NCBI RefSeq assembly: GCF_014274465.1
Contig: NZ_CP060394.1
Location: 5,518,001-5,582,000 of the forward strand
Length of the DNA stretch: 64,000 nt
Reading direction: 5' to 3'
Source: Alloacidobacterium dinghuense
GTDB lineage: Bacteria; Acidobacteriota; Terriglobia; Terriglobales; Acidobacteriaceae
Below the pieces are notes generated by a model. That model did not search any database, was not told the DNA's origin, and was given only the letters and a program-made list of their open reading frames with translations. Position 1 is the stretch's first letter, and the number at the start of each line of letters is the position of its first letter. The position numbers and the translations under genes were made by a program. Positions 35,308-40,056 of the stretch are shown in pieces.

Positions 35308-36768
35308 CTAGGTGCTGCGCGCCATCTCCTGTGGATGGAAGATCGATTTCCATGAGGCATCGAGATACAGCCACCGCTGCGTGCTGAACCAGCTCGTCGG
35401 CAGCTCCGGAACATGCAGGAAGCCATGCCCAACCACGCAGATCAACTCCGTCCCGTTCCACCCCAGGAAATTCTGGGACGCCTGCCCCACATGCACAGGG
35501 TTCCGCAGCAACTGCAGGCAAACCGGGCAACGGCAGCGCTGGTCGCGCAGCATCCAGCGAAACCCCGCCAAAGCCGAGGCAAAGGTAAGAATCAGCTGCG
35601 CGGATTGCGTATCTTGAAATGCCTGTGCCAGGTCGAGCGATGCAAAACATATAGCCGGGACAATCAATATCAGTTTTGCCGTAAAGAAGAGCCAGCGTCG
35701 CAGCCGTAACGCCAGCGATTGCTGCCGCGGATTGTACGGATATTCTCCCAGCGGCAGCGATGTCGTCGCAGGAAGCGCCAGCAAAGCCAGGAGCGCCGCG
35801 AAGGCAAAAAAGACAAACGGCTCGCGCGCATAGTGCTTCACCGATACGCAGGCAAAACCGGCAACGCTCCCGTCATTCTGCGGCACCACCATGTGCCAGC
35901 TTTCCTCCGTTGCCGACCGAACGAGCGCCGGCTGAATACGCGCCACTACAAATCCGAGTGACTGAGCCGCAAGCGTCTCTACGCGGCTTTGATCTTCGAG
36001 CAGCCACGCATCGACCCGTCCGGGAAGCCGCCAGGCGTCTCGTTTCGCAACGCCGATAATCATTGCCTTCTCACCCATCAAAAAAACAACGCGGCCAAGG
36101 ATGTGAGGATCGGCATGAAAAGCTCTGCGCCACAACGCATCGCTGAGAACAAGTTGCGGGCCGGCGGTCGCCAGATGATCAGCAACCGGAAAACTCGCAG
36201 TTTCCAGCAAGGAAAGAAGGTTGCCTGAGCTGCGGGCGACGGAAAGCTCCAATTCTGCTCCATGTCCCGTGTGAAGCTGCCTGCGCACAATCTGGTAAAA
36301 AGCCAGATCGGAAAACACTCCTTGCGTTGCGCGTTGCCAGTAGCGAAATTCTCCAAGCGAGATACTTGCAGACGGCGTGTGCGAAGAGCCATTCCTGGCG
36401 ACAACCACCAACGTGCGTGCATCGCGATACGGCGAGGGTAGCAATGTCCCCCGCGTCCCCGGCAGAACATACGCCAATCCAAGGCTTACTAACGCCGTCA
36501 TGAGCAGCGACAAAAGGCACAGCACGGGAGATGACCTGACTGCATGCGAGCTTCGCGAACCTGCGCGGCGAAGGTCAGCCCGCAACAAATAAGCATCCCG
36601 AAACGCCCCGCCTGCAAATGCAGTTGCTTCTTCCGCTGCGCGCAATTGCGCAACGTGCCAAAGTTCAGCTTTCCACTCCCTAAGCCATTCTCTACGGTCT
36701 TCCGAAGGCACGATCCAGGAGGCAAAGCGCAGGACGGCCATGCAGGCGTGCAGCGGAAGAGGCCTCAT
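35308..36768 (-). CDS. ADOP/MacB-like membrane protein, lacking most permease helices
   Basis: A 486-residue protein. Residues 1-75 resemble the cytoplasmic N-terminal segment of acidobacterial duplicated orphan permeases (SEDRREWLREWKAELWH). One helix follows (LCLLSLLMTALVSLGLAYVL), then a MacB-type periplasmic domain (SISLGEFRYWQRATQGVFSDLAFYQ). The usual permease blocks are missing; instead there are two or three helices and a C-terminal segment with Cys pairs (RCRCPVCLQLL). Full ADOPs are about 800 residues, so this is a reduced or remodelled member. Its start overlaps the end of padR (4 bp), as is common for PadR-ADOP pairs. Confidence 0.7.
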   Translation of the reverse strand: MRPLPLHACMAVLRFASWIVPSEDRREWLREWKAELWHVAQLRAAEEATAFAGGAFRDAYLLRADLRRAGSRSSHAVRSSPVLCLLSLLMTALVSLGLAYVLPGTRGTLLPSPYRDARTLVVVARNGSSHTPSASISLGEFRYWQRATQGVFSDLAFYQIVRRQLHTGHGAELELSVARSSGNLLSLLETASFPVADHLATAGPQLVLSDALWRRAFHADPHILGRVVFLMGEKAMIIGVAKRDAWRLPGRVDAWLLEDQSRVETLAAQSLGFVVARIQPALVRSATEESWHMVVPQNDGSVAGFACVSVKHYAREPFVFFAFAALLALLALPATTSLPLGEYPYNPRQQSLALRLRRWLFFTAKLILIVPAICFASLDLAQAFQDTQSAQLILTFASALAGFRWMLRDQRCRCPVCLQLLRNPVHVGQASQNFLGWNGTELICVVGHGFLHVPELPTSWFSTQRWLYLDASWKSIFHPQEMARST

Positions 36769-37082
36769 ACGCGCTCAGCCTCCGTCTGCGGGATCAGTTT
36801 TTCCAGCAGGGGATAGCGTTTAAGCGAAGCCTCCAGCGTCGCCTTTCCCGCTCGCGTCACCTTGTAGTATTTGCGCGGCGGACGCTGCTCCGAAGTGGCA
36901 ATCGTCTCCGCCTCCCACTTCGACTGAATCAGCCCGTCGCGCTCGAGTCTGCGCATCGCCGGATAGACAGTACCGCTTGGCAGCCCCGTCATCTCCATCA
37001 CGCTGAAGCCGTAGATATAACCGGCGCTGATGGCCCTCAGTATCAGCGCGGCGGTATGCGATAGTTTCGGCTCTGCGCCCAT
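36765..37082 (-). CDS. PadR family transcriptional regulator
   Basis: A 105-residue winged-helix repressor: LSHTAALILRAISAGYIYGFSVMEMTGLPSGTVYPAMRRLERDGLIQSKWE is the PadR fold, with PPRKYYKVTRAGKATLE forming the wing. It is translationally coupled to the ADOP-like gene. A near-perfect 18-bp inverted repeat covers the divergent promoters just upstream (37098-37144), so it very likely represses itself and the divergent ABC exporter. TATAAT ends only nine bases before the ATG, which implies a leaderless or almost leaderless mRNA. Confidence 0.93.
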   Translation of the reverse strand: MGAEPKLSHTAALILRAISAGYIYGFSVMEMTGLPSGTVYPAMRRLERDGLIQSKWEAETIATSEQRPPRKYYKVTRAGKATLEASLKRYPLLEKLIPQTEAERV

Positions 37083-37091
37083 GCCCGGCCA

Positions 37092-37097
37092 TTATAC
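37092..37097 (-). promoter_or_regulatory. -10 element of padR
   Basis: A consensus TATAAT on the minus strand, nine bases before the padR start codon. The -35 region (CGTCAA-like, 17 bp upstream) is weak and lies between the arms of the PadR inverted repeat. Confidence 0.6.
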
Positions 37098-37144
37098 CTA
37101 TGTAGCATGCTACTTGACGAGCCTGTAAGTAGTTTGCTACATAG
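37098..37144. promoter_or_regulatory. Probable PadR operator (18-bp inverted repeat)
   Basis: The arm at 37098-37115 (CTATGTAGCATGCTACTT) is repeated inverted at 37127-37144 with two mismatches, separated by 11 bp. The left arm itself contains the palindrome GTAGCATGCTAC. ATGT-N-ACAT-type inverted repeats are typical PadR sites. The site covers promoter elements of both divergent genes. Confidence 0.75.
37114..37143 (+). promoter_or_regulatory. Promoter of the ABC exporter genes
   Basis: TTGACG (37114-37119) and TACATA (37138-37143) are separated by 18 bp. The predicted start of transcription falls on or next to the ATG at 37150, so the message would be leaderless unless the weak AGGAT before the ATG is transcribed from further upstream. 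Confidence 0.5.
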
Positions 37145-37149
37145 GATAC

Positions 37150-37938
37150 ATGGAAACGCCTCCCATCCTTGCCCTCGAGAACATCACCAAGCGCTATCGC
37201 GGCATCGCCGCCGTTGAAAATGTAAGCTTCCAACTCGATGCAGGCGAGATCGCCGGTTATCTCGGCCCCAACGGCTCCGGCAAATCGACCACGGTAAAAA
37301 TCATCACCGGGATGCTGCAGCCGAACACGGGGAAAGTGCTCTTTCGCGGCAAGCCGATTCACGACAATCTTGTCGCCTACCGCTCGGTATTGGGCTACGT
37401 CCCGGAAGAAGCCCACGTGTACACGCATCTATCCGGACTTGAATATCTTCAACTCGTCGGGCGTCTGCGCGGAATGACCGAAAAACTTATCGCGCTCAAG
37501 GCGCACACGCTGCTCAAGCTGCTGGCGCTCGAATCCTGGCGCTATTCGCCGATTTCGCTCTATTCCAAGGGCATGAAGCAGCGCGTCCTCATCGCCGCCG
37601 CATTGATGCACAATCCACAGTTACTGATCTTCGACGAGCCGCTCTCCGGCCTCGATGTTGTTTCCGCACGTCTCTTCAAGGATCTGCTCACTGCCCTCGC
37701 CGCCGAGGGAAAAGCGATTCTCTACATCTCGCACGTGCTCGAAGTCGTCGAGCAGATTTGCGGCCGCGTCATTGTCATTGCGCAGGGAAAGATCTGTGCA
37801 AACGCAGCCCCGTCGGAGCTGACCCAACTGATGCAACTGCCAAGCCTTGAAAGCGTCTTCGCGCAGCTCGTACAGCAGCAGGACACAAAAACCGCAGCCA
37901 GCGAAATGGTTGAAGTGATGAGGGCGACCCGTGCATAG
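37150..37938 (+). CDS. ABC transporter ATP-binding protein
   Basis: A 262-residue ATPase subunit. Walker A GPNGSGKST near residues 39-47, Q-loop region VLGYVPEEAHVYTHLSG, signature SPISLYSKGMKQRV, Walker B LLIFDEPLSGLD and the switch His in ILYISHVLEVVE. It resembles exporters of the ABC-2/bacitracin-daunorubicin type (about 260 residues). It overlaps the following membrane gene by eight bases. Expression is expected to be controlled by the divergent PadR regulator via the shared operator. Substrate unknown; antibiotic or lipid export is typical for PadR-linked systems. Confidence 0.93.
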   Translation: METPPILALENITKRYRGIAAVENVSFQLDAGEIAGYLGPNGSGKSTTVKIITGMLQPNTGKVLFRGKPIHDNLVAYRSVLGYVPEEAHVYTHLSGLEYLQLVGRLRGMTEKLIALKAHTLLKLLALESWRYSPISLYSKGMKQRVLIAAALMHNPQLLIFDEPLSGLDVVSARLFKDLLTALAAEGKAILYISHVLEVVEQICGRVIVIAQGKICANAAPSELTQLMQLPSLESVFAQLVQQQDTKTAASEMVEVMRATRA

Positions 37939-39721
37939 CGCATTTCAGATCTTTACTCCGCCGGAAAACCCCGTGCTCTCACTCGAAGTGCAGGCCCGGA
38001 TGACCAGCAAAGAAATCGTTCGCATGAACAGATTCGTCGTTCTCGCACGACATTTCTTTGATCGCTTCTTCGATAACCCTCTGACTTCGCTCGACGGCGA
38101 AAATGGCGTGCGCGCCATTCAAATCCTCTGCTTCATTGCCGTCCCCGGATTGATGGTCGCACTCTCGCTCATTCCGTCGTACTTCATCTTTCCTCCGAAT
38201 ACAGCGCCGCGTGCCTACTGGGCGCGCGTCAGCGACCATTACTTTTACGTCATGTACTCAAGCGTGGCAATGGGGGCGGCCACTGTTTTTGAATGGAACC
38301 TGCTCTTCCCCGACCTGATCGATGTTCAGGTGCTTACACCGCTGCCTGTTCCGGCACGGAAGCTCTTCGCCGCCAGGATCGCATCGCTTGCAGCATTCGT
38401 AAGCCTCTCCCTGCTCGCTACCGGCCTCTTCGGTGCCGTTTTGCTGCCTCTCATCGCGGAAGAGCCGAGCGTGCTGCGCCACTTCATCGCACACGTGATT
38501 GCAGTAGCCGCAGGCGGGTTCTTCACCGCCGGATTCTTCGTCGCCCTGCAGGGATTCCTGCTCAACATTTTCGGCGATCGATTCTTTCGTTGGATATCCG
38601 CAGCCCTGCAAGGGCTTTCGCTCGCAGTGCTTCTCATCGTGCTGTTTCTTTTTCCACTGCTCTCGGAAAATCTGCGGCTCCTGCTCACTTCAGGCAACCA
38701 TGCTGCTCTCTGGTTCCCGCCCTTCTGGTTTCTCGGAATTTACCAGGTATTGCTTGAAGGCGGGCGTGCCTTGCCCGTCTTCTTCCAGCTTGCAGCAAAA
38801 GGAGGTTGGGCATTGCTTCTCGTCTTGTCGCTTGCCTGCCTCACCTACCCTCTGGCCTATCGAAGAAAGATGCGCAGCACAATCGAGGGCACGGTCGCGA
38901 AGAGTTCTCGTAACCGGCTGGCCGAGGCAAAGGTTGCTCTTCTGCACAGCGTCTTGATCTTCAAACCCGCTCAGAGGGCCGTGTATCACTTCACCACGCG
39001 AACCCTGAAGCGCGCCCCGCATCATCGGGTGTTTCTCTCCATGTATGCTGGGGCTGCATTCGCCCTGCTGATTGCCGTCACTGTTGAACTCCGCCAGGAC
39101 AACACCCATCTCGCGCTCGTCTTTTCGCGGCACGGCTTGCTTGCCGCTGTTCCCATCGTGGCGCTGCTCGCGGTCGTCGGGCTCAAAGGCGCATTCCTGT
39201 CTCCGGTCGAACTGCAGGCAAACTGGGCCTTCCACGTCGTTGGCCGGCGACCGAACGAAGATCACCTTGTCTCGACCCAGCGCTGGACTCTCCTGCGTTC
39301 TCTAAGTATCACAGCGACAGTTCTCTTATTGGTGCAGATCATCGGAGGCGCCGCGTTCGCGCATATCCGGCTTATGATGGCGCAGTTGCTCGTAGCCCAG
39401 GGGTTATGTGTCTTGCTCATCGACATCCTCTTCCTGCGCTTCCTGTCGGTGCCATTCACCGTGCCCCTCGCCTATTCGAAGCGCAATATAGCGGTGACCG
39501 TAACGCTCTTCCTCTTGTTGTTTCCTGGCTACATTCAGCTAACCGTGGATACGGCACTATGGACGGAGCACAGCCTCTGGCACTTCATCCCTATTGCAGC
39601 CTTCTTCCTGGTAACCCATATTCTGCTCCAGCGGAAACAGCGCGAACTCATCCGCGAACGCGCAGACTGGCCTGAAGATGGGTATATCGACGAATTCCCA
39701 CAACGCCTGGGTCTTTCCTGA
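37931..39721 (+). CDS. Large ABC-type membrane permease of unknown substrate
   Basis: A 596-residue integral membrane protein with about 10-12 hydrophobic helices (for example ILCFIAVPGLMVALSLIPSYF, VFLSMYAGAAFALLIAVTV). It is translationally coupled to the ATPase gene, so it is almost certainly the membrane partner of that exporter. The C-terminal half carries cytosolic charged loops (HVVGRRPNEDHLVSTQRW). No standard ABC-2 domain signature was evident; similar proteins are Acidobacteriota-typical orphans. The first 40 residues contain a second Met start (MTSKEIVRMNRF) that could be used instead. Confidence 0.75.
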   Translation: MHSAFQIFTPPENPVLSLEVQARMTSKEIVRMNRFVVLARHFFDRFFDNPLTSLDGENGVRAIQILCFIAVPGLMVALSLIPSYFIFPPNTAPRAYWARVSDHYFYVMYSSVAMGAATVFEWNLLFPDLIDVQVLTPLPVPARKLFAARIASLAAFVSLSLLATGLFGAVLLPLIAEEPSVLRHFIAHVIAVAAGGFFTAGFFVALQGFLLNIFGDRFFRWISAALQGLSLAVLLIVLFLFPLLSENLRLLLTSGNHAALWFPPFWFLGIYQVLLEGGRALPVFFQLAAKGGWALLLVLSLACLTYPLAYRRKMRSTIEGTVAKSSRNRLAEAKVALLHSVLIFKPAQRAVYHFTTRTLKRAPHHRVFLSMYAGAAFALLIAVTVELRQDNTHLALVFSRHGLLAAVPIVALLAVVGLKGAFLSPVELQANWAFHVVGRRPNEDHLVSTQRWTLLRSLSITATVLLLVQIIGGAAFAHIRLMMAQLLVAQGLCVLLIDILFLRFLSVPFTVPLAYSKRNIAVTVTLFLLLFPGYIQLTVDTALWTEHSLWHFIPIAAFFLVTHILLQRKQRELIRERADWPEDGYIDEFPQRLGLS

Positions 39722-39858
39722 GAAAGACAGCGAACTAATCCCTTTGTATAACTCGAATAACTAGCTAGATATCAGCGACTTAATTCATTTCTCGCTCAGA
39801 GCGCGAATCCTGATATTCTATTTAAGCCCTAGTGGGTCGGTTTGGAGGTGTAGTTCAG

Positions 39859-40056
39859 TTGGCAGAGGTTCGTGTGCAGGAAGGCGAGCCGCTGGAAAAT
39901 GCGTTGCGCCGGTTTAAGCGGAAGGTACAGCAGGAAGACATCATCAAGGAAGTGAAGCGTCATTCCTTTTACCTGAAGCCCGGTGAAAAGCGCCGTGTGA
40001 AAGAGGCGTTGGCACGCAAGCGGAATCGCAAAAAGGCTCGTAAAGAGCAGGATTAA
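39859..40056 (+). CDS. rpsU: 30S ribosomal protein S21
   Basis: A 65-residue basic protein of the small ribosomal subunit: AEVRVQEGEPLENALRRFKRKVQ, KRHSFYLKPGEKRR and the Arg/Lys-rich tail are diagnostic of S21. The start is a TTG at 39859, nine bases after GGAGGTG; longer frames starting at GTG 39832 would bury this site. TTG initiation may lower translation. It is monocistronic, followed after about 25 bp by a hairpin. Confidence 0.92.
   Translation: MAEVRVQEGEPLENALRRFKRKVQQEDIIKEVKRHSFYLKPGEKRRVKEALARKRNRKKARKEQD

Follow-up and report, generated by a model that had tools for sequence, protein, structure and literature searches.

Two putative PadR boxes and predicted near-leaderless starts between padR and a divergent ABC exporter operon in an acidobacterial genome

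The window analysed here is a 64-kb stretch of a genome of 6.27 Mb, which is assembled as one contig and is acidobacterial judging from matches of its PadR and ADOP-type proteins, both of them under the family cut-offs. Within it, padR and an ABC ATPase gene diverge from an intergenic region of 67 nt. The former (36765–37082, minus strand) encodes a 105-aa PadR-family regulator and has a predicted leader of about 2 nt; the latter (37150–37938, plus strand) encodes a 262-aa ABC transporter ATP-binding subunit and is predicted to be leaderless. A membrane subunit (permease) gene (37931–39721, plus strand; 596 aa) follows the ATPase gene, with which it overlaps by 8 nt. Downstream of padR, with a 4-nt overlap, lies an ADOP-like half permease gene (35308–36768, minus strand), the product of which matches TIGR03434 partially and below the cut-off (70.5 vs. 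622.3 bits). The two minus-strand genes are probably transcribed together, and a PadR switch at this locus would therefore probably control two membrane systems, given that the ADOP-like gene both overlaps and follows padR. An ADOP-like half permease, 29–69% identical, is also found behind padR in 6/6 relatives examined. On the far side of the permease gene, GGAGGTGTAGTTCAGTTGGCAGAG (39844–39867, plus strand) stands directly before a reading frame; ARAGORN called no tRNA at these positions, and we take the stretch to resemble the 5′ half of a tRNA and the adjoining frame to be S21-like.

The padR product matches the PadR winged-helix family (PF03551; 1e-12; 48.3 bits vs. a cut-off of 27) and the ATPase matches PF00005 (1.7e-30), in agreement with an earlier, sequence-only reading of this DNA, which had placed a PadR-family regulator beside a divergent ABC transporter. 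By sequence, the closest solved chains to the padR product are PadR regulators (e.g. 6abq, 6abt, 9g51, and 3f8b), the last of which we take to be LmrR. The product is related to the model of an acidobacterial PadR paralog family (TIGR03433) and lies outside that family, scoring 46.1 bits against a cut-off of 101.8. Judged by inspection rather than by structural alignment, its sole tryptophan is W56 (of 105 residues), and the last-helix tryptophan of LmrR (W96) seems to have no counterpart.

The exporter proteins are less readily assigned. The best NCBIfam match of the ATPase, TIGR01188 (DrrA), stays below its cut-off (199.8 vs. 312.45 bits), the 596-aa permease has no Pfam or NCBIfam match, and a Pfam search of 21 permease orthologs yielded scattered weak matches only. 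Compared with PDB entries by Foldseek, the AlphaFold model of the permease (mean pLDDT 79.1) comes closest to a mycobacterial efflux pump (E 0.013; TM 0.45/0.50), followed by NosFY; all matches have E >0.01, and none reaches E ≤0.001. An ABC-2-like export role for the ATPase and permease is likely. The earlier term ‘resistance-type’ is unproven, the permease having no family match and weak fold matches.

The predicted padR promoter consists of a −35 element TCGTCA (37115–37120, minus strand) and, 18 nt away, a −10 element TATAAT (37091–37096, minus strand), and is the sole sigma-70-like site reported by a scan of 36700–37300. The −10 element stands just before the padR ATG at 37082, as had been noted, although the gap is 8 nt (37090–37083) and not nine. 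On the exporter side, TTGACG (37114–37119, plus strand) and TACATA (37138–37143, plus strand) are separated by 18 nt, and the latter ends six bases before the ATG at 37150, exactly as previously described; TACATA is preceded by TGC and in this respect is like an extended −10 element. Five base pairs are common to the two −35 elements. The promoters accordingly stand back to back on one −35 region and, because that region is shared, would compete. The strict consensus scan of 36700–37300 reports no exporter promoter, nor any plus-strand candidate further upstream; it passes over TACATA because this hexamer is weak, agreeing with the consensus at 3/6 positions and having no T at position 6.

Transcription is predicted to start at 37084 for padR, leaving a leader of 2 nt, and at 37150, the A of the ATG, for the exporter. 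Both sides have the geometry of leaderless genes, with hexamer-to-ATG gaps of 8 nt (padR) and 6 nt (exporter). An in-frame TAA at 37126–37128, with no start codon between it and the ATG at 37150, rules out a start codon further upstream for the exporter, and a script found no alternative in-frame ATG, GTG, or TTG through residue 8. There is no well-placed Shine–Dalgarno motif before 37150, where an AGGA ends 3 nt from the ATG.

Between the two genes lies an inverted repeat with arms at 37097–37115 (CCTATGTAGCATGCTACTT) and 37127–37145 (AAGTAGTTTGCTACATAGG). The two mismatches and the 11-bp spacer reported earlier are correct, but the arms are 19 nt long rather than 18 (17/19 paired). By this standard (arms of 19 nt with 17 or more pairs, spacer of at most 30), the repeat is the only one in the 64-kb window, while 264 kb of the genome contain two, and 0/20,000 Markov-simulated 67-nt intergenic regions matched this one. 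The consensus PadR box is ATGT-N8-ACAT (PMC5050560). The left arm, in the spacer between the padR −35 and −10 elements, holds a left box, ATGT-AGCATGCT-ACTT (37100–37115), and the right arm holds a right box, AAGT-AGTTTGCT-ACAT (37127–37142), which lies over the exporter −10 element. Each box departs from the consensus at 1/8 positions, its outer half being perfect and its inner half imperfect. Each repeat arm is itself, in terms of sequence, a whole putative PadR-type box, and the two boxes flank the overlapping −35 elements. The pattern TATGTAG-N4-CTAC has two exact matches in the 6.27-Mb genome, both in the padR/exporter intergenic region. A wider regulon was sought by allowing one mismatch in this pattern and was rejected; the 33 matches obtained fall below the 79 of a reversed control pattern, and only the two exact matches are therefore meaningful.

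Comparison of the interval in related species, which had been suggested as a check, reveals that the inverted repeat is conserved. A permease search matched 74/200 genomes of the order at E ≤0.001, distant ones included, and among the loci listed a divergent padR ortholog lies beside the permease in 26/30 (window included; absent at L040, L041, L047, and L049). A padR search matched 97/397 genomes of the order at E ≤1e-20, and 113 distinct padR start regions formed the comparison set. Both outer half-sites are present in 84/113 of these padR loci. The left box pattern occurs in 81/90 loci with a divergent ATPase gene and in 20/23 without. Among loci that have the left box, the right box is found in 78/81 with a divergent ATPase gene vs. 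6/20 without a detected one (Fisher p ~4e-10, each locus being counted as independent though the loci are related). Over all loci, the corresponding figures are 78/90 and 6/23, which are undercounts because the right half-site was sought only where the left one had been found. The left box thus accompanies padR and the right box accompanies the exporter, a pattern that suggests one putative box per gene.

The exceptions are few. Nine of the 90 ATPase loci have no left pattern, some of them carrying one-base variants and some being truly different, and three ATPase loci have a left box without a right one. Conversely, six loci have a right box without a detected ATPase gene (L116, L148, L163, L170, L178, and L183); these may have another target gene, or the ATPase gene may be further off. 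The stretch covered on the exporter side of padR was ~300 or ~450 nt per locus, beyond which an ATPase gene would be missed, as it also would be at L116, which is near a contig end. In seven further loci without a detected ATPase gene (L101, L107, L120, L121, L122, L125, and L126), the left box lies near the start codon, either intact or altered at one base, and the right half-site is missing. Among distant padR loci, L153, L192, and L198 have the left box repeated beside padR, and L189 and L197 have no left box and a CTACATAGGG box further off.

The predicted near-leaderlessness of padR is conserved. A TATAAT-like hexamer stands 5–8 nt before the padR start in 58/73 two-box loci with a spacing of at least 36, vs. 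~4% in shuffles, and a strict −10 element occurs at that distance in 63/113 of all padR loci. In a more distant padR group, the box abuts the padR start.

The exporter is different in this respect. Its leader was assessed in 77 loci that have both boxes, an ATPase gene, and a start candidate; TTGAC or a near variant is found at the −35 place in 63/77, and the remaining 14, without a recognisable −35 element, were set aside. Six of the 63 scorable loci are predicted to be leaderless (≤2 nt), 54 are led (including L115, the 5-nt leader of which was counted as such), and three are ambiguous; start candidates of both kinds occur at L048, L111, and L167. The predicted leaderless exporters are those of L031, L032, and L072, all from the window's genus, and of L113, L124, and L059. 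A Shine–Dalgarno-like motif, taken from a loose pattern list, precedes 37/57 exporters with a longer candidate leader; its absence from the six leaderless loci is partly built in, because the search room there was at most 5 nt. On a tree of 88 loci, built from PadR and part of the ATPase and rooted at the midpoint, with several weakly supported nodes, leaderless exporters fall into three clades, the root state is led, and three Fitch changes are counted. In the window's genus, the locus is present in 3/4 genomes, the fourth being 59% complete, and all three exporters are predicted to be leaderless. There, the usual exporter start position is occupied by ATC or GTC, and the ATG, which coincides with the predicted transcription start, is found about five codons before it. 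The predicted leader-free exporter start is lineage-specific, not conserved. The proposal that both genes are near-leaderless consequently stands for the geometry in the window and, for padR, across most orthologs with two boxes, but for the exporter it extends to only 6/63 scorable loci.

Leaderless control of such an exporter had been supposed to be unusual, but leaderless genes are common in Acidobacteria. They have been reported in 3/3 Acidobacteria genomes, at a mean of 13.3% (Zheng et al. 2011, PMC3160421), and an exporter precedent is described for lysE (PMC5648196). Additionally, 9/29 other PadR paralogs of the present genome have a predicted leader of 0–5 nt, with starts chosen by hand. 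A genome-wide rate was sought from the TANNNT profile before first starts (207 genes called, 204 scored), which has no clear peak; a full promoter score gave five in-frame matches with +1 within 1 nt of a start, where out-of-frame starts lead one to expect 0.5. The difference points in the right direction, but the numbers are too small to yield a rate.

The spacing between the two boxes is not fixed. In the 84 two-box loci it is 29–30 (10 loci), 34 (1), 36–43 (48), 46–51 (20), 57–58 (4), or 66 (1), falling mostly in steps of ~10 bp, with 34, 36, 43, and 46 fitting poorly. The phase concentration R is 0.75 at period 10 (n = 84 loci, related to one another). When nine spacing changes, counted by hand on the tree, are considered instead, 33/20,000 random sets reach the observed concentration; for the six clade-founding changes alone, 1,010/20,000 do so. 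As control distances, padR start to box gives R ~0.64 and is also narrow, and box to exporter start gives 0.32 and is not. A helical phase of the box pair is, therefore, suggestive and not proven, few independent events being behind it. Where the spacing is larger by ~10, TACATA is no longer at promoter distance; in some such loci (L044 and L058, TTGACA-16-TATGCT), another −10-like hexamer stands 16–17 nt from TTGAC, and in others the alternative is weak. What the box pair seems to hold constant is its rotational register, not its position relative to the promoter.

From the boxes, the promoter geometry, their conservation, and the start-codon shift, all of which are read from the letters, we infer an autoregulated divergent switch with two PadR boxes, a leader-free padR, and a lineage-specific leader-free exporter, to which we assign a probability of about 0.74. 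One PadR dimer would bind the left box (37100–37115), in the padR −35/−10 spacer, and repress padR together with the ADOP-like gene, and a second would bind the right box (37127–37142), over the exporter −10 element, and repress the ATPase–permease operon. The two promoters, having one −35 region between them, would be rivals for RNA polymerase. Both operons would be derepressed when a ligand or stress loosened PadR, the exporter proteins then presumably acting in export. In the window, as in most orthologs with two boxes, the padR transcript would begin ~0–2 nt before the ATG. The exporter transcript would start at the ATG itself in the window's genus, because the start codon, compared with that of led relatives, is shifted upstream by about five codons to the predicted transcription start and a start led by a Shine–Dalgarno motif is no longer present.

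Other explanations were considered. According to the sequence-only reading, a single PadR operator, formed by one 18-bp repeat, shuts two leaderless promoters at once, and leaderlessness is the key control device of the exporter. The repeat is indeed symmetrical and covers both promoters, and both predicted starts are within 2 nt of their ATGs. Nevertheless, either arm alone makes up a PadR-type dyad, the two boxes change spacing and come apart in evolution, and 54/63 scorable exporter loci are led, with three more ambiguous. We consider this explanation quite unlikely and prefer one box per gene to one operator blocking both, because the exporter-side box tracks the exporter. It is also unlikely that the exporter has a normal leader, transcribed from a more distant promoter that lies within padR on the strand opposite to that gene, and that only padR is leaderless. 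In favour of this arrangement are the weak exporter −10 element and the padR promoter being the only consensus promoter found in 36700–37300, but the scan found no plus-strand candidate upstream and no well-placed Shine–Dalgarno motif precedes 37150. The combination of a TTGAC-like element, 17–19 nt, and TACATA furthermore recurs in 41/63 scorable loci, a conservation that alone does not prove an exporter promoter because the same elements are also parts of the boxes and of the padR −35 region.

That the repeat works as RNA, forming a regulatory hairpin, or as a bidirectional terminator, rather than as a protein site, is scarcely credible. An inverted repeat of 19 nt could form a stem; however, the scan found no terminator-like site, and the arms correspond to PadR boxes, the exact form of which is confined to a single locus in the genome. 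Neither mRNA would contain the repeat, because both predicted starts lie outside it.

Among known systems, LmrR of Lactococcus lactis is a PadR repressor of the ABC multidrug exporter lmrCD and of itself, and the likeness extends to the small size of the regulator and to the control regions, those of lmrCD and of lmrR each having PadR motifs (PMC4534193). In contrast, the window has both boxes in one divergent intergenic region of 67 nt, with a shared −35 region and near-leaderless predicted starts, and W96, the ligand-stacking tryptophan of LmrR, seems to be absent from its PadR. For cdPadR1 of Clostridioides difficile, the promoter of its own gene contains two inverted-repeat boxes, which would fit autoregulation, but the protein belongs to the PadR-s2 subfamily and has a box, TACT(N11–12)AGTA, with ~200 genome matches (PMC5050560), whereas the exact box of the window occurs at a single locus. 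In Mycobacterium tuberculosis, lysG and lysE likewise form a divergent regulator/exporter promoter pair with a leaderless exporter transcript from P2-lysE, although the regulator is a lysine-dependent LysR-type activator and the proteins are unrelated (PMC5648196). In crtR–crtE of Corynebacterium glutamicum, the divergent repressor is reported to have a leaderless transcript and the operator overlaps target promoter elements, but the repressor is of the MarR family and transcription of the target operon begins 114 nt before the start codon (PMC5401885). The same arrangement as in the window was not found in the titles and abstract beginnings of the open PMC papers listed.

The switch would thus be an ordinary autoregulated PadR–exporter divergon in a tidy and widely conserved version, the value of which is comparative: 84/113 loci have the two boxes in common but differ in spacing and leaders, which makes the pairing of box and gene, the need for phasing, and the route from led to leaderless testable. 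A more far-reaching and tentative reading, which we rate as possible yet somewhat doubtful, is that a phased twin-PadR operator holds its rotational register, stepping by ~10 bp, while promoters and start codons move, and that in three or more lineages the transcription start has captured the start codon of the exporter, which thereby passed from led to leaderless with its repressor unchanged. If this is true, loci with a phased twin operator form a natural series for how leaderless genes arise. The locus also provides a well-defined candidate site for the binding of one acidobacterial PadR among the 31 PadR-family matches in this genome, several of which, by eye, have inverted repeats around the −10 element and start codon.
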